DNA from: a virus | Length of the DNA: 64,000 nt | IMG/VR virus record: IMGVR_UViG_3300009159_008491 | Span: 29,820 to 93,819 of that record | Direction: 5' to 3' (one strand) | Shown here: piece after piece, positions 30,444-64,000 of the stretch | How positions within the stretch are numbered: the stretch's first letter is position 1 | How the letters are laid out: each line of letters starts with the position of its first letter | Position numbers and translations under genes: made by a program | The notes under the pieces: generated by a model | Database searches by the model: none | Told to the model about the DNA's origin: nothing | The model's input: only the letters and a program-made list of their open reading frames with translations

Positions 30444-30845
30444 TTAAATTTCGGTTATTTCAAATTCATCTAAACCACAACCTTCTCCATCTTCACCAAA
30501 ATCTCCTGTTTTTTCATCGGTTAACCAACCCCTAAATACAGCAGAATATCCATTTTTGTCATCTCCATCAGGATAAGATTCTAAATAAGCCTCTGTACCT
30601 TGATCAAACCACTCATCTGGTTTGGTTATAAATCTATAGTTTTGTTTATAAATTTTATAACTATAATTGTTATCTGGTTTAAAATAATCAATAAATCTAT
30701 CTTCAAAAATACTGAACCATTTATTATTTATTATTATAAAATGATCATAAGATGATCTTCCTTCATATGATAAATAAATTATATCATTATTTTTAAGGTC
30801 TTCAATTTTTATTTCTTGCCAGAATGGTTTATTGAATCTACTCAT
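30444..30845 (-). CDS. Hypothetical protein, 133 aa, acidic C-terminus
   Basis: An aromatic-rich protein (FIIINNKWFSIFEDRFIDYF) followed by a Gly/Asp-rich tail (SYPDGDDKNGYSA; GDFGEDGEGCGLDEFE). The beginning LKNNDIIYLSYEGRSSYDHF suggests a small beta-barrel. It overlaps the end of topA by four bases, hence it is part of the takeover block. Function unknown. Confidence 0.6.
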   Translation of the reverse strand: MSRFNKPFWQEIKIEDLKNNDIIYLSYEGRSSYDHFIIINNKWFSIFEDRFIDYFKPDNNYSYKIYKQNYRFITKPDEWFDQGTEAYLESYPDGDDKNGYSAVFRGWLTDEKTGDFGEDGEGCGLDEFEITEI

Positions 30846-33172
30846 TTTTTCTTAGCGTATTTTTTGGGTTTAGCTGAACTTTTACCTTCTCCGATTATGT
30901 CTTCACAATCTTTTTTGGTAATAGTTTCTATATCATAAATAGCCGGAATCTTATAATTTTTATTCTTGAATTTAATATATGGTCCATATTGACCACTTAA
31001 TACTTTAATTTCACCGAATTCTTTTGTAGATCCCGATTTTTCATTGCTTGAATTTTCTTTTATTAATTCTGTAGCTTCCTTTAGAGTTATTTTTTCAGGA
31101 TCATATTCCGTATTCGATAATCCAACAAATTTACCATCATATTTGATATATGGTCCAAATTTACCAATTGCTACCAGTACAGGTTTTGATTTATATTCTC
31201 CTAGATTTCTAGGCCATTTTAAAAGTTCTAAAGCCTCTTCGAGATTTATGCCACCAACTTCTTTATCTTTAGGGATAGATGCATATTTTAAATCTTCATC
31301 TCCTTTTTCACCTAATTGTACCATTGGCCCAAATCTTCCAAAACGAGCATAAATATTTTTCTTGGTAGATTTATCAACACCAATTAATCTTTCGTTTGAT
31401 GTTCCGGTTTCACCAAGAGCAGATTTAACTTTCTTATCAAAAGGAGAATAAAAATCTTTTAACATTGTTTTCCATTCTTTACTGCCTTCTGAAATTTCAT
31501 CTAATTGATTTTCTATTCCAGCAGTAAATTTATAATCCATGATATCTGGAAAATTTTCTGTAAGATAATCACAAACTACAATACCAATTTCTGTAGGTAT
31601 CATCTTAGCTTTTTCTGTACCAAATTTTTCATCTAGTTCAGTAGTAGATAAATTATCATTTTTTAATGAAAGGTTTTTTACTTTTCTAGATTTTGCTGGT
31701 AAATCTTTTTTCTCAACATATTCTCTTTTTTGAATAGTTGATAAAATTGAAGCATAGGTAGAAGGTCTTCCTATTCCAAGTTCTTCTAGTCTCTTTACTA
31801 AAGACGCTTCATTATATCTAGCTGATGGTTTTGAATAGATTTCTAAACCTTCAATTTGTTCGTAATTAAGAATTTGACCTTTCTCCATTTTTGGTAAAGT
31901 GCCATTGTCATCTTGATCTTCTTGATTTTCTTCCTCTTCAACATCATCATTATTATAAACCTTTAAGAAACCATCGAATGTAATCACTTCTCCTTTGGCA
32001 ACAAATAATTCTTTTTTTCCAGTATTAGAACTTTCAATTTCAATAGTGGTTTTATCAAGTAATGCATCCGACATTTGAGAGGCTACTGCTCTTTTCCAAA
32101 TTAAACTATAAAGTTTCATTTCATCTTGACCAGAAACTACTTCTTCATGTTCAAAATGAGTTGGTCTTATTGCTTCATGGGCTTCTTGAGCACTGGCGTT
32201 TTTATTTTTAAATTTTTTCGGATTTGAAAATTTATTACCATACTTCTCAACTATAAATTGAGTTGCTGTTTGAACAGATTCTTCTGATAAATTTACACTG
32301 TCAGTACGATGGTAAGATATATGACCTTGCTCGTAAAGATTTTGAGCAGTTCTCATAGTTCTATCCACACTGAATCCAAATTTTTTTGATGCTTCTTGTT
32401 GTAATCCTGAAGTTGTAAATGGAGCAGGTGAACTTCTTTTTCCCGGTTTAGTTTCAATTAAACTAACACTAAATTCTGAACCAATTAATTTGCTTAAAAA
32501 CTTTTCTGTTTCCTCATAGTTTTTAAATCTTTTATTTAATACGGCTTTTATTTTTTGTTTTTTACCACCTTTATCAATTGAGAAAATTGCAACAACTTTG
32601 TAATCAGAAGTTGAATCAAAAGACTTGTGTTCTTTTTCTCTTTCAACAAGAATTCTTAAAGCAACACTTTGAACTCTTCCTGCAGATAAACCTAATTTGA
32701 TTTTTTTCCAAAGCAATAGAGAAAGATCAAATCCTACTAAACGATCTAATACCCTTCTTGCTTGTTGGGCATTAACCATATTCATATTAAGTGTTGTAGG
32801 ATTATTTATTGCATCCTTAAGAGCTTTTTCAGTAATCTCTTTAAAAATAATTCTTTTTGTTTTTTTGATGTTTAAACCAAGTACTTCTGCAACGTGCCAA
32901 GAGATTGCTTCACCTTCCAAATCGTAGTCACCAGCAAGAATTACTTCATCACATTTTTTTGCTAACTCTTTTAGTTCTTTTACTACATCTTTTTTATCAG
33001 ATGAAATTTGGTATGAAGGTTCAAAATCATTTTTTTTATCAATACCTTCTTTTCCTTTTTTTAATTCACGAATATGTCCAACACTTGCTTTTACAACATA
33101 ATCTTTTCCTAGGAAAGATTGAATTTTTTTAATCTTTCCGGGACTTTCACATATAACTAATTTTTTACCCAT
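30842..33172 (-). CDS. topA: DNA topoisomerase I, type IA, bacterial-type
   Basis: A complete 776-residue enzyme. The TOPRIM domain starts KKLVICESPGKIKKIQ, with the Asp-x-Asp-x-Glu site in AGDYDLEGEAISWH. The LGLSAGRVQSVALRILVERE block precedes the active-site Tyr287 in HISYHRTDSVNL. GIGRPSTYASIL is the conserved C-terminal core motif. The end holds Gly-rich repeats (RFGPMVQLGE; KFGPYIKYDG; QYGPYIKFKN) as in Bacteroidota TopA, followed by a basic tail. It relaxes negative supercoils. A full host-like TopA is uncommon in phages, and its place after sigma genes points to control of transcription or replication topology. Confidence 0.95.
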   Translation of the reverse strand: MGKKLVICESPGKIKKIQSFLGKDYVVKASVGHIRELKKGKEGIDKKNDFEPSYQISSDKKDVVKELKELAKKCDEVILAGDYDLEGEAISWHVAEVLGLNIKKTKRIIFKEITEKALKDAINNPTTLNMNMVNAQQARRVLDRLVGFDLSLLLWKKIKLGLSAGRVQSVALRILVEREKEHKSFDSTSDYKVVAIFSIDKGGKKQKIKAVLNKRFKNYEETEKFLSKLIGSEFSVSLIETKPGKRSSPAPFTTSGLQQEASKKFGFSVDRTMRTAQNLYEQGHISYHRTDSVNLSEESVQTATQFIVEKYGNKFSNPKKFKNKNASAQEAHEAIRPTHFEHEEVVSGQDEMKLYSLIWKRAVASQMSDALLDKTTIEIESSNTGKKELFVAKGEVITFDGFLKVYNNDDVEEEENQEDQDDNGTLPKMEKGQILNYEQIEGLEIYSKPSARYNEASLVKRLEELGIGRPSTYASILSTIQKREYVEKKDLPAKSRKVKNLSLKNDNLSTTELDEKFGTEKAKMIPTEIGIVVCDYLTENFPDIMDYKFTAGIENQLDEISEGSKEWKTMLKDFYSPFDKKVKSALGETGTSNERLIGVDKSTKKNIYARFGRFGPMVQLGEKGDEDLKYASIPKDKEVGGINLEEALELLKWPRNLGEYKSKPVLVAIGKFGPYIKYDGKFVGLSNTEYDPEKITLKEATELIKENSSNEKSGSTKEFGEIKVLSGQYGPYIKFKNKNYKIPAIYDIETITKKDCEDIIGEGKSSAKPKKYAKKK

Positions 33173-58114: not shown

Positions 58115-58663
58115 ATGATTTTAGCATTAGATATTTCCACTTCTGTAATAGGTGTAGCTTTATTTGGTTTAGAGAATGATAATTATAAATTGCATGAATT
58201 ATCTTATAAAAAATTTAAACCTAAACATAATTTATTTGAAAAAATAGATGAATTTAAAGATTTTTTTAAGGAATATGAAGATATTATAATCACTGATATT
58301 AGCATAGAAGAACCTTTAAAAAAATTCAAAGGAAAATTTTCTAACGCAGACACTATTCAAAAATTAACTCAAATGAATGCTATGGTCAGTTTATTTCTTT
58401 ATGAAAAAACTGGCATACAACCAACTTATTATAATGTTTCTTCAGCCAGAGGTATTGTTTTTCCTGAATTAAAAATGCCAAAGTCCCATCCCAATAAAAA
58501 ATATCTTATTTGGGAAGCTGTTAATAAAGCTGAACCTAAAATTATATGGAAATATAGTAAAACTACTCACAAACTAATTGATGAGAATTTTGATATGGCC
58601 GATGCTTGGGTAGTTGGTATGGCCCATGTTTGTTCTAAAATAAATTCCAAAACTTTAGCATAA
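58115..58663 (+). CDS. RuvC-like Holliday-junction resolvase
   Basis: A 182-residue RNase H-fold protein. ILALDISTSVIGVALFG supplies the first catalytic Asp (residue 6), ITDISIEEPLKKF the Glu, and NFDMADAWVVGMAHV the final Asp pair, in the order of RuvC-type nucleases. The gap between second and third sites holds a helical region fitting the family. It cuts four-way DNA junctions before packaging, as endonuclease VII does in T4, and heads the replication-recombination block. Confidence 0.8.
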   Translation: MILALDISTSVIGVALFGLENDNYKLHELSYKKFKPKHNLFEKIDEFKDFFKEYEDIIITDISIEEPLKKFKGKFSNADTIQKLTQMNAMVSLFLYEKTGIQPTYYNVSSARGIVFPELKMPKSHPNKKYLIWEAVNKAEPKIIWKYSKTTHKLIDENFDMADAWVVGMAHVCSKINSKTLA

Positions 58664-58691: not shown

Positions 58692-59753
58692 ATGATGAGT
58701 GGCGAAAATAATATTGTAATAAGTTCTATCCTAAAAAGGATGCTAGGGGATCCTAAGGATGAGTATGAAAATATTGTCCAGTTTGAATTTAATTGCCCAA
58801 GCTCATATTGTCGTAATGATGTTGATAAGTTTAATTTAGGATATAATTCTGACCTTAACATTTTTCATTGTTGGAAATGTAAATATAAAGGTTTTGTTAA
58901 AAAATTAGCGGATGATTATGGTAATGAAGATGAAAAGGAAAAAATAAGATTAATATTTCCAAAAGCTTCAAAAAATTATACTCAAAACATACAGCAAAAT
59001 AACAATATAAAGAAAGTTAGTTCAGAAGATGTAATTTGTGAGCTTCCTGAAGGATTTAAACCTCTTGTTGAAAAATCAAGTTCTCCGAATTATAGGAAAG
59101 CGATTAAATATTTGCAGAGTAGGAAAGTAGATTTTGATACTATAAAAAAATATAATATTGGTTATACTGAAGATGGTCCAAGGAAATTTAGAATTATAAT
59201 TCCTTCTTATAATTTGGATGGTAAAATTAATTATTATGAAGCTAGAAGTTATGTACCTTCAATAAAGCCAACTTATTTAAAACCAGATTATCCTGATAAA
59301 CAGGATATAATTTTTAATTTAAAAAACATAAATTTCAATTTGCCAGTTTATTTAGTTGAGGGTGTTTTTGATATGTTTCCTATAATAAATGCTATACCAT
59401 TATTAGGAAAAACAATTTCAGAAATTTTACTTAATAAATTAATAGAGAATCAATCTAAAGTCATAATTTGTTTAGATGAGGATGCAAAAAAAGATGCTTA
59501 TGATTTATATTTTAAATTAGAAAGTATGGGTTTAGATGTTTATTATGTTGAAATTCAGAACGATATAGCTAAATACTATGAGACAAATGGCAGAGAAGCA
59601 TTAATAAATCTTATAAAAAAACATAAAAAATTAGATTTTAACCATATTTTTGTGGATAAGTTAAGAAATAGAAAGAAGGGATACGCAAAAAACCTTAATT
59701 CTGATTTTGTAAAGAGAGAGTTTGAAAGATTAAAAAATAAAATTAATGAATAA
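58692..59753 (+). CDS. DNA primase, gp61-like with CHC2-type zinc domain and TOPRIM
   Basis: A 353-residue protein, close to T4 gp61 in length. An N-terminal zinc ribbon (Cys35, Cys40, Cys60, Cys63 in CPSSYC...FHCWKCKYKG) is followed by the primase core. The TOPRIM site is YLVEGVFDMFPII with the ICLDEDAKKDAY acidic pair. It makes primers for lagging-strand synthesis. Its stop overlaps the next start by eight bases, coupling it with the recombination nuclease. Confidence 0.9.
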   Translation: MMSGENNIVISSILKRMLGDPKDEYENIVQFEFNCPSSYCRNDVDKFNLGYNSDLNIFHCWKCKYKGFVKKLADDYGNEDEKEKIRLIFPKASKNYTQNIQQNNNIKKVSSEDVICELPEGFKPLVEKSSSPNYRKAIKYLQSRKVDFDTIKKYNIGYTEDGPRKFRIIIPSYNLDGKINYYEARSYVPSIKPTYLKPDYPDKQDIIFNLKNINFNLPVYLVEGVFDMFPIINAIPLLGKTISEILLNKLIENQSKVIICLDEDAKKDAYDLYFKLESMGLDVYYVEIQNDIAKYYETNGREALINLIKKHKKLDFNHIFVDKLRNRKKGYAKNLNSDFVKREFERLKNKINE

Positions 59754-62700
59754 TAAAATTGCACATGTAGCGGATCTTCATATAAGATTCGGGTCAAGAC
59801 ATCAAGAATATAAAACTGTTTTTAATAGACTTGTAAAAGATTTAAAAAATGAATCTCCAAGAAGAATAGTTATTGCTGGAGATATTTTCCATTTGAAAAT
59901 AAATTTATCACCAACATCTATTGATATTGCTGGTAATTTACTTAAGACTTTATCTAAAATAGCACCTGTTGATATAATTATTGGTAATCACGATTTTAAT
60001 CAGCAAGATTTAACTCAAGGGGATGCTATATCACCTTTAATTGATTTATTAGAAAATGGTTATATTGTAACAAAAGATTCTCCTAAGCTAAAAAAACCTA
60101 AGAGTGGTAATGGTGTTTATTTTTTCAGAGATTCCGGTTTTTATAATATTGAAGAAGATTTAGTTTATGGTGTTTATTCTTTATTGGATGAAGAGATAAT
60201 TACTTTGACTGAAAAGGAAAAAGATAAAAAATACATAGCTCTTTATCATGGTCCTGTTTATGGTTGTGTTAATGACAATGGTTATCAATTAAAAGGTGAT
60301 GAGTTACTTAAGATAACTGCTTTTAATAATTTTGATATTGTTATGCTTGGTGATATTCATGAACATCAGTCGTTTGAAAGAAAAAATGGTGATACTGCTG
60401 CTTATGCATCTTCTTTAATCCAACAAAATTTTGGTGAATCAATTGAAAAGGGTTATTTAATGTGGGATTTAGAAACATTAGAGTTTGAAAGAAGATATGT
60501 TCCAAATGATTATGGTTATTGTAAGTTAAATATCACAAAGGGCGAATTAGTTGATGAACGTTTACAAGATTTAAAATTTTCTGTTGATAAAAAGAAAACA
60601 CGCATTTATATTGAGATCGAAGATGATGCTGAAAATGAAAATGTAGAAAAGAAATCTCAGATTAGAAAATGGATTAAAGACATTCATGGGTGCGAAAATG
60701 TTACCGTAGAATTTAAACCTATTCATAAAGAAAAAACTCTAGAGTCAGAAAGCGAAAGTTTATCTTATGAAGATTCTGAAAATTTTGAGAAGTTACTTTT
60801 GGATTATTTAACACAGAATTCTTATGAAAACATTGATGATGTAATCGGTTTAAGTAAAGAGATAGACTCAAAAATAAATTTGGAAGTCCAAGAGAAAAAA
60901 GGTGCCGAATGGGATCTTAATAAAATGGAAACATTTAATATTTTTTCTCATCCTGCACAAATTAATCAATTCGATTTCGATAAACTAAATGGAATTACTG
61001 GAATATTTGGTAAAAACTATTCTGGTAAATCTAATATTATTAAGGCTTTAGTATGGGGTTTATACGAAAAGATTCTTGGCGGTGGTGATAATCATAAAGT
61101 TGTAAATTTATATACTGGTAACAATAAAGCTTGGGTTAGGATTTATCTTACTATAGCCGGAACTCAATATAGAATTGAAAGGGGCATAACTGTTACTATG
61201 AAGAAAGATGGTACAACTAAAGCAGCTTATTCAATCAAGTATGAGTATTTGACTTATGATGAAGACGGTGATGTAGTTTGGGTTAATGAAGAATCAGATA
61301 GAGCTGCTAAAGAGAAAAAAGAATTTAAAAAATTAATTGTTGATAGTATTGGAACATTTGATGATTTTACAAAGATTTCTTTGCAAACACAAGGGGGAAA
61401 AGATGATTATTTAAGTTTACAGCAACAACCTAAAAATGATTTGATCAGGAAGTTTTTTGGATTAGAAACATTTGATGTGAAATACGAGTTTGCTAATAAA
61501 ATTTTTAATCAAGTAAAATCAGTTCAAAAACATTTAGGTGATCCTGCAGAGATAGAAAAGCAAATAGAAGATTTTAATAAAAACATAGGTGAAGAAAAAA
61601 ACAAATTAGATTTCTTGACTGAGGATAAACAAAAAAATCAAGAACAAATTGATATTCATAACAATGAAATTCTTGAATTAACTCAAAAAATAACTCAGCT
61701 TGAAACTACTACTGAAACTAGTGTTGATGGTGCAAATGAAAAGATAAATAAAAACAATACTGCTCTTGAAAAGCTGAATGATAAAATTGATTTTTTAACT
61801 GATTGGAATTCTAAAAACTTTATCAAAGAAATTCCTCAAGAATTAATCGGTTTAGATTCTGCAACACTTGATTCTAAAATAGAAAAACTAAGAGATAATT
61901 TTCAAAAAAATAAAAATAGTTATCTTTTAATAGATCAGTGGTTAAAAGATAATCCTAAAAAAGATGTAGAAGATTCCGCTTCTTATGAAAATTCATTAGA
62001 CCAAAATAGACAAGAAAAAATAGTTTTAGAAAATGAATTAAAAATTTCAAGAGGAGAAAAGTGTCCAACTTGTAAACAAATAACAAAGGAAGCGAATCCT
62101 AATATTGAAACTGATTGTCTAGCTAAAATTGCGAATATTAATGATGAACTTAAAAAACTTCAGGATAAATTAACAGAAATAAAAAACATTGCTAATCATA
62201 ATATTAAATTTGATGGAGAGAAAAACAAGTTAGATTCACTTAAAAATTCTTTACAATCAGATAAAATTGAAATAGATAGATTAAAGTTAAACATTGATAA
62301 GTTAGCTCAAGTAGAAAGTGATATTAAACACAATGAAGAGGTTAAAAAAAATAATCTTGAATTAGATAGTTTAAAAAATCAAAAACAAAAAGTAGAGGAA
62401 TCTAGTAAGGATTTAAAAGATCAGATTGAAAAGATTAAAAATAATAAATCAAAAAAGGAATCCAACGATAAAATACAAAACGAAATTCAGGCTCTTAAGC
62501 AAAGTGTTGTTGAATATAAATCTGTTTTGTTACAAATTGATAATAATATAAAAGAAGCATCCGGAAACATCAAAGTACAAGAAAGTAATGTTCAAAATCT
62601 TACAGATAAATTAAATCAGATTAAAGAATCGGTAAGAATTTATGCTAAGTATTCAGTATATCTTCAAGCTGTTTCTAGAGATGGGATACCAGCACAGATA

Positions 62701-63177
62701 CTTAAGAAAAAATTACCAATAGTAAACTATAGAATAAATACTATTTTATCAAACATAGTTAATTTCAAAATTGATATGTTTGTAAAAAACAATGGAGATG
62801 TTCAAGAGATATTTTATTTTAACCCTGATAAATCTGATGCTCTTCCATTATCAATGGGTTCAGGTTCTCAGAAGTTTGTTGGAAGTATAGCTATTACAGA
62901 CGCTTTACATTCTGTAAGTTGTTTAATGAAACCAAATCTTAGAATCATTGATGAAGGATTTGGAACACTTGATGAAGATAAAACTGCTGATATTGGAAAA
63001 GTATTTTCATATTTGAGTAATCGTTATAAAAACATATTAATCATTACTCATAGAACTGAAATAAAAGATTTCGTCAACAATATTATTCAAGTAACAAAAT
63101 CAACTTCTGGATTATTGAAAGAGCAAATTGAATCAAATCCAGATGCAGGTGTTTCACAATTTTCTATAACTTGTTAA
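59746..63177 (+). CDS. Fused gp47-gp46 (SbcD-SbcC / Mre11-Rad50-like) recombination nuclease in one polypeptide
   Basis: An 1143-residue protein. Residues 1-330 carry the Mre11/gp47 motifs: HVADLH (Asp10, His12), IAGDIFH (Asp46), IGNHDF (Asn81-Asp83), YHGPV (His168) and LGDIHEH (Asp203, His205, His207). Residues about 400-1143 form a gp46/SbcC-like ABC ATPase: Walker A GKNYSGKS (422-429), long coiled coils, zinc hook CPTC (Cys773, Cys776), the signature MGSGSQKFVGS and Walker B IIDEGFGTLDEDK (Asp1069, Glu1070). The gp47-to-gp46 linker is acidic and in frame. It resects DNA ends for recombination-dependent replication. Confidence 0.95.
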   Translation: MNNKIAHVADLHIRFGSRHQEYKTVFNRLVKDLKNESPRRIVIAGDIFHLKINLSPTSIDIAGNLLKTLSKIAPVDIIIGNHDFNQQDLTQGDAISPLIDLLENGYIVTKDSPKLKKPKSGNGVYFFRDSGFYNIEEDLVYGVYSLLDEEIITLTEKEKDKKYIALYHGPVYGCVNDNGYQLKGDELLKITAFNNFDIVMLGDIHEHQSFERKNGDTAAYASSLIQQNFGESIEKGYLMWDLETLEFERRYVPNDYGYCKLNITKGELVDERLQDLKFSVDKKKTRIYIEIEDDAENENVEKKSQIRKWIKDIHGCENVTVEFKPIHKEKTLESESESLSYEDSENFEKLLLDYLTQNSYENIDDVIGLSKEIDSKINLEVQEKKGAEWDLNKMETFNIFSHPAQINQFDFDKLNGITGIFGKNYSGKSNIIKALVWGLYEKILGGGDNHKVVNLYTGNNKAWVRIYLTIAGTQYRIERGITVTMKKDGTTKAAYSIKYEYLTYDEDGDVVWVNEESDRAAKEKKEFKKLIVDSIGTFDDFTKISLQTQGGKDDYLSLQQQPKNDLIRKFFGLETFDVKYEFANKIFNQVKSVQKHLGDPAEIEKQIEDFNKNIGEEKNKLDFLTEDKQKNQEQIDIHNNEILELTQKITQLETTTETSVDGANEKINKNNTALEKLNDKIDFLTDWNSKNFIKEIPQELIGLDSATLDSKIEKLRDNFQKNKNSYLLIDQWLKDNPKKDVEDSASYENSLDQNRQEKIVLENELKISRGEKCPTCKQITKEANPNIETDCLAKIANINDELKKLQDKLTEIKNIANHNIKFDGEKNKLDSLKNSLQSDKIEIDRLKLNIDKLAQVESDIKHNEEVKKNNLELDSLKNQKQKVEESSKDLKDQIEKIKNNKSKKESNDKIQNEIQALKQSVVEYKSVLLQIDNNIKEASGNIKVQESNVQNLTDKLNQIKESVRIYAKYSVYLQAVSRDGIPAQILKKKLPIVNYRINTILSNIVNFKIDMFVKNNGDVQEIFYFNPDKSDALPLSMGSGSQKFVGSIAITDALHSVSCLMKPNLRIIDEGFGTLDEDKTADIGKVFSYLSNRYKNILIITHRTEIKDFVNNIIQVTKSTSGLLKEQIESNPDAGVSQFSITC

Positions 63178-63178
63178 T

Positions 63179-64000
63179 ATGACAGAAGTTAAAAATAAAT
63201 ACACTGAAGAACAGCTATCTTTTATTCAGGCAGATGTAAAATCTAATATTATACTTAGAGCAACCGCTGGATCAGGGAAGACCTTTTCTGCAGTTGAAAG
63301 AGTTAGATTTTTATTATCTAAAGGAGTTGATCCATCTAAAATTTTATTTTTTTCTTATACTAAAGCTGCGGTTGAAGAGTTTAGAGCAAGGTTAAATAAT
63401 GATCAAATAAAGATTACAACTATTCATGCTTTTTGTCAAGGTATGTTATCCAAGATGAAAAAGTTTAAAAAAGTTGTTGAAATATATGAGTTTATTTCTT
63501 GGTATAAAGAAAAAAACAAACCAAAGCCAAGTGCTTCTAGTGAGGTTAAAATCAAATTTTATGAATTAGTAAATGACCTTTATGAAAATGCTCAATATAT
63601 AAGTGCGGAAATAACTGCATATAAGTTGCAAATTGCTGAAGGTATTCGTTGTAAAAAACCAAACTTTTTTGAAGAATACAATAAATTCAAAAAAGAAACA
63701 AAGACCAGAGATTTCTCTGATATGCTTATTGAAATTCGTGATTTGCTAAAAGAAAACAAATGGTTAGTTATGTTTAGAAATAAATATGATTATATTCTTA
63801 TAGATGAATTTCAGGATACATCATCCATTCAAATGGATATTTTATTGAAGCTAAATGCAAAGTATTATACTTTAATTGGAGATATAGGTCAATCTATATT
63901 TGGTTATAGTGGTGCCAATGCATTTACGGTAATGGATATGTTAAAAAAGAGAAGACAGGTTGAGGAAATGACTTTGAGTATTAATTTTAGAAGTTGTAAA
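63179..64000 (+). CDS. UvrD/Rep-like SF1 helicase, partial
   Basis: An open frame of 274 codons from an ATG at 63179 (one base after the preceding stop) to the right edge. Visible motifs: RATAGSGKTF (Walker A), FSYTKAAVEEF (Ia), TIHAFCQGML, ILIDEFQDTSS (motif II), LIGDIGQSIFGYSGA (motif III) and SINFRSC (start of motif IV). It is a 3'-5' helicase of the UvrD group. It follows the fused nuclease directly and probably works in recombination or replication. Confidence 0.9.
   Translation, partial: MTEVKNKYTEEQLSFIQADVKSNIILRATAGSGKTFSAVERVRFLLSKGVDPSKILFFSYTKAAVEEFRARLNNDQIKITTIHAFCQGMLSKMKKFKKVVEIYEFISWYKEKNKPKPSASSEVKIKFYELVNDLYENAQYISAEITAYKLQIAEGIRCKKPNFFEEYNKFKKETKTRDFSDMLIEIRDLLKENKWLVMFRNKYDYILIDEFQDTSSIQMDILLKLNAKYYTLIGDIGQSIFGYSGANAFTVMDMLKKRRQVEEMTLSINFRSCK

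Follow-up and report, generated by a model that had tools for sequence, protein, structure and literature searches.

We are highly confident that the window (the whole 64,000-nucleotide stretch analysed, from a 93.8-kb virus contig) encodes a single-chain Mre11–Rad50 protein of the fused type known from viruses, most likely resecting DNA ends for recombination-dependent replication and repair. The gene is a real yet ordinary example of this type, which has been known since 2011 and is common in aquatic viruses. Its frame opens with an ATG and runs for 1143 residues without an internal stop (Table 1). Pfam places Metallophos (residues 4–206, 2.3e-11) and AAA_23 (residues 398–649, 1.5e-11) in this one frame; among the PHROGs, phrog_35725, a metallo-phosphoesterase family of 1376 positions, matches residues 3–231 and the SbcC-like phrog_77 spans residues 267–1120 (4.5e-43), and in sequence matches to the PDB Mre11 chains cover residues 4–257 and Rad50 chains residues 400–480 and 1031–1119. 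An earlier note on this DNA had described a gp47–gp46 (Mre11–Rad50) chain, in that order and with both domains intact, which the single open reading frame and these matches confirm. It had set this chain against T4, where gp47 and gp46 are indeed two chains with the small genes 46.2 and 46.1 between them; the T4 proteins share with the window fusion the two domains, the transcriptional order and the recombination role, but have the motif GHFH and fall on the opposite side of the trees described below.

Table 1. Features of the fused gene and of its neighbours, with positions in the window.
Feature	Position	Strand	Evidence
RuvC-like Holliday junction resolvase, upstream of primase	58115..58663	+	phrog_159, 2.9e-5
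Phage DNA primase	58692..59753	+	phrog_47, 7.5e-39
Fused Mre11–Rad50 (gp47–gp46 / SbcD–SbcC) gene, 1143 aa	59746..63177	+	Single ORF; Pfam/PHROG/PDB matches to both halves
Mre11-like phosphoesterase domain, residues 1–245	59746..60480	+	Metallophos; residues conserved in 59 relatives; AF2 model
Capping-like region, residues 246–330	60481..60735	+	AF2 strands/helices; Foldseek, Mre11 chains, ~370 columns
Helix-loop-helix, presumed Rad50-binding, residues 344–376	60775..60873	+	AF2 helices; role by homology to T. maritima Mre11
Linker between halves, residues 377–387	60874..60906	+	No regular structure between helix 363–376 and strand 388–397
Rad50 ATPase N-lobe, residues 388–570, with Walker A 422–429	60907..61455	+	AAA_23; AF2 model
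Coiled-coil arms, residues 574–976	61465..62673	+	AF2 model
CPTC zinc hook, residues 773–776	62062–62073	+	C776 invariant in both alignments
Rad50 ATPase C-lobe, residues 981–1119	62686..63102	+	Alignments; PDB Rad50 matches 1031–1119
UvrD-type DNA helicase, directly 3′ of fusion, runs off window	63179..64000	+	Pfam UvrD-helicase, 6.5e-40

The order of the cluster (RuvC-like resolvase, primase, fusion, UvrD helicase) gives the gene a DNA-replication/recombination setting. The 3′ end of the primase gene and the start of the fusion share eight bases, the fusion ATG lying within the last primase codons, and because of this overlap the two genes probably form one transcription unit. Elsewhere in the window, a 776-residue protein (30842–33172, minus strand) matches phrog_13226 (2.5e-146), a large phage family.

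The nuclease half carries D10, H12, G45-D46, G80-N81-H82-D83, H168 and G202-D203-I-H205; four of the five Mre11/SbcD motifs (DxH, GDxx[DH], GNH[DE] and H) are matched, and the fifth reads GDxH in place of GHxH. Asp203 of this last motif, GDIH, aligns with the GHIH histidine of T. maritima Mre11 and stands in place of the metal ligand His206 of P. furiosus. It is invariant in the alignment of 59 relatives, whereas GHxH is found in T4 gp47, Lpa804, the Moorella phage and PAU; in the same 59 the catalytic His82 and the remaining metal ligands vary little or not at all. The earlier claim that all catalytic motifs are present thus needs qualification at this position. Judged from sequence, the replacement of a metal-binding His by Asp may alter the activity or the metal preference. 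In the ATPase half all of the Rad50/SbcC features are found: Walker A (GKNYSGKS, 422–429), the CxxC hook, the signature, Walker B (D1069-E1070) and the paired lobes, together with H1102. The ABC signature that the note had listed is there, with S1039-G1040 conserved in the alignments, but it reads SMGSGSQK and is divergent from LSGGE. The zinc hook, likewise listed, lies in the coiled coil as C773-P-T-C776. A third cysteine, C791 (window 62116–62118), which follows the CPTC hook by 15 residues, is conserved almost without exception in the subclade of the window protein.

The probability that a sequencing or assembly error wrongly joined two neighbouring genes is negligible. The source record is an IMG/VR-type virus contig and one relative, L016, has a frameshift in its nuclease part, both of which would allow for such an error, but the frame is open across the same junction in dozens of independent contigs, 24–78% identical and from many metagenomes, which in practice rules out a missed stop or frameshift. 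Searching IMG/VR with the protein gave 18 loci with full-length relatives (41–78% identity), and searching with the alignment detected relatives encoded in at least 585 stretches, the best 80 of which were retained. In nearly all of the retained relatives a single frame of some 1030–1350 residues spans both domains; the exceptions are those at contig ends, L016 (frameshift), L107 (a late-opening frame) and L043 and L048 (an interruption of the nuclease domain). The junction of the halves is unbroken in every relative read, including the region of residues 330–400, where a stop or frameshift had been named as the sign that would speak against a fusion, and GC content is flat over the locus. The Microcystis phage Mel-JY01 annotates the fusion as a single CDS of 1066 aa. 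Against the 78% identical relative, dN/dS is ∼0.09 overall, which also argues against an artefact; the nuclease taken alone gives 0.09 and the ATPase N-lobe 0.03. Across the helix-loop-helix and the linker the synonymous sites are saturated, yet 73% of the residues are kept in the closest relative. Purifying selection is strong, and it acts on both halves. The frameshift of L016 (L016:7980-11481) is itself probably an assembly error.

In some records AAA_23 by itself was too weak to pick up even the fusion, so phrog_77 was used for the SbcC searches. In the IMG/VR records searched with it a separate Rad50/SbcC gene was not found, the one strong match in each being the fusion; Mel-JY01 has two further weak phrog_77 matches besides its fusion. 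Two extra phosphatases of G001 (227 and 246 aa) stand alone. A scan of genome contigs gave four relatives only, each on a contig from a metagenome-assembled genome. Three have the fusion, on what may be stray viral contigs, and in the fourth (L112) the match is in the nuclease only. Plasmid matches are distant and partial.

An AlphaFold2 model built from 59 sequences (mean pLDDT 83, pTM 0.47) contains the Mre11 core, the capping region, helices 344–357 and 363–376, an unstructured stretch at 377–387, the Rad50 lobes and the coiled coil (574–976); this low pTM makes the model unreliable as to how the heads, the nuclease and the coiled coil are arranged relative to one another. Fold matches in the PDB include Mre11–Rad50 complexes, with Mre11 chains at a TMt of 0.6–0.7. 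With Foldseek against BFVD, ranks 1–4 over the whole length are giant-virus proteins (Tupanvirus, Harvfovirus, Yasminevirus and Catovirus), with the Tenacibaculum phages pT24 and PTm1 just behind; the Tupanvirus protein (1379 aa) aligns over 1370 columns (E = 5.6e-62) with 21% identity in the structural alignment.

Mre11/Rad50 fusions in the nuclease-first order have been described in Mimivirus R555 (1351 aa), Bacillus phage 0305phi8-36, plasmids, bacteria and eukaryotes; aquatic viral metagenomes yielded hundreds of homologues, and in some cases the scaffold also carried phage primase genes (Yoshida, Claverie and Ogata, Virol J 2011, PMC3175470). The same study noted a helix-loop-helix between the halves and a gap of ∼28 Å that calls for a linker of 9–12 residues, and found Asp242 of R555 at the position of P. 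furiosus His206 (PMC3175470). The window protein is like the R555-type fusions in its order of nuclease then ATPase, its helix-loop-helix and short linker, its Asp for His206 and its setting among aquatic viruses with primase neighbours, and the predicted linker of 11 residues fits the length expected. The Asp was noted for R555 and need not be present in all fusions. The likeness to R555 itself rests on the published description, the full-length fold matches being to other giant-virus members, and the two differ in length (1143 versus 1351 aa) and in genome (bacteriophage-type versus giant virus). The rarity implied by the earlier note is not borne out: the fusion was published in 2011, is abundant in aquatic viral metagenomes and occurs hundreds of times in IMG/VR, and the survey of related phages that the note had proposed finds it both in the IMG/VR relatives and in several sequenced phages.

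Among the latter, Mel-JY01 (WWT39521.1) has the same fusion with a primase just upstream and 26.5% identity over 97%, but it belongs to another subclade, has the zinc hook CKHC and is annotated merely as an 'AAA domain containing protein'. Sphingomonas phage PAU gp288 and the proteins of Tenacibaculum and Chryseobacterium phages share the one-chain domain order and lie on the window protein's side of the tree; they are longer (1301–1326 aa), and PAU has GHIH where the window protein has GDIH. In PAU, PTm1, pT24 and the Chryseobacterium phages the fusion is labelled 'metallo-phosphoesterase'. In an unrooted tree that compares 24 fused with 10 two-chain proteins, sampled by means of a fused query and with several long end branches, a single branch (100/100) sets the fused proteins apart from the two-chain ones, and the same split is obtained from the nuclease half alone (97) and from the ATPase half alone (99). 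This would fit a single fusion event within the sampled phages; in the published tree, where cellular fusions were present as well, monophyly was not obtained (PMC3175470).

Three relatives (L043, L048 and L021) are re-split inside the nuclease domain. In L043:5998-9979 and L048:2985-8805 the break comes right after the nuclease motif GDIHEYQ, the first piece ending in an acidic tail and the second starting with a basic leader (MGKKIRIRRKSPTA). The L048 insert holds a homing endonuclease (phrog_559, phrog_9084) together with head-protease and DNA-methylase fragments, and the L043 insert a shorter endonuclease remnant. L021:4001-8169 (LR756508, a 484-kb phage of a distant subclade) is broken at the same site by a different endonuclease-like ORF (TnsA-like / phrog_1271), and its pieces carry an acidic tail (EDELEKYLNSGWKL) and a basic leader (KYRVKR) that resemble those of L043 and L048. 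A group I intron was rejected on the lack of an Rfam match in the interrupted relatives; intein ends were not seen in them by eye, the tails of the split pieces have no Pfam match, and searches with the leader and tail DNA patterns found no contigs beyond the same two. The tail and leader gained in L043 and L048 resemble those of phage genes split by homing endonucleases. Such interruption is known from nrdA of phage Aeh1, whose split pieces were shown to form a functional enzyme (PMC2988022), and from gene 60 of T4.

The analogy with T4 gp46/47, the family and the gene neighbours together suggest that the fusion most likely acts in DNA-end resection and bridging during recombination-dependent replication and repair. 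As in the Mre11–Rad50, SbcCD and gp46–47 families, two chains would pair through their nuclease domains and ATPase heads; ATP binding would shut the heads and gate the nuclease, hydrolysis would open it so that DNA ends are processed, and the zinc hook would bridge or clamp the DNA. The resected ends would supply the 3′ single strands for phage recombination-dependent replication and repair. The 11-residue linker would substitute for a non-covalent contact and leave the architecture unchanged. That the fusion fixes a 1:1 stoichiometry, as the earlier note proposed, may fairly be inferred. As two chains, however, Mre11 and Rad50 come together 2:2 anyway, so the fixed stoichiometry adds little.

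We think it very unlikely that the fusion has diverged in function, the Asp203 site being no canonical exo/endonuclease and the protein acting mainly as a DNA-tethering ATPase or as a nuclease of other specificity. The contrast between an invariant Asp203 in the 59 relatives and the histidine of T4 gp47, Lpa804 and the Moorella phage would agree with this, as would the same change published for R555 (PMC3175470), but the conservation of His82 and of the other ligands weighs against it, the same metal can be bound by Asp, and the strong motif conservation speaks for catalysis. That the enzyme chiefly breaks down host DNA is also highly improbable: T4 gp46/47 acts in host-DNA degradation as well, according to a database record note, yet the neighbours here are a primase, a resolvase and a helicase, and such an activity would be compatible with the replication and repair role that we prefer. 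A wider proposal appears rather unlikely, namely that phage and giant-virus fusions belong to one ancient viral lineage with an altered Asp metal site and a non-canonical nuclease activity, and that homing endonucleases re-split some members, which now function in two pieces joined through the new tails.

A short single chain that, by analogy, would have both activities could suit structural work on the placement of the nuclease relative to the ATPase heads; it opens no new question, as this one and the same geometry were already put forward in 2011 (PMC3175470). Many full-length phage genes now confirm what could then be inferred only from short metagenome reads, namely that a large group of aquatic phages normally has Mre11 and Rad50 fused.
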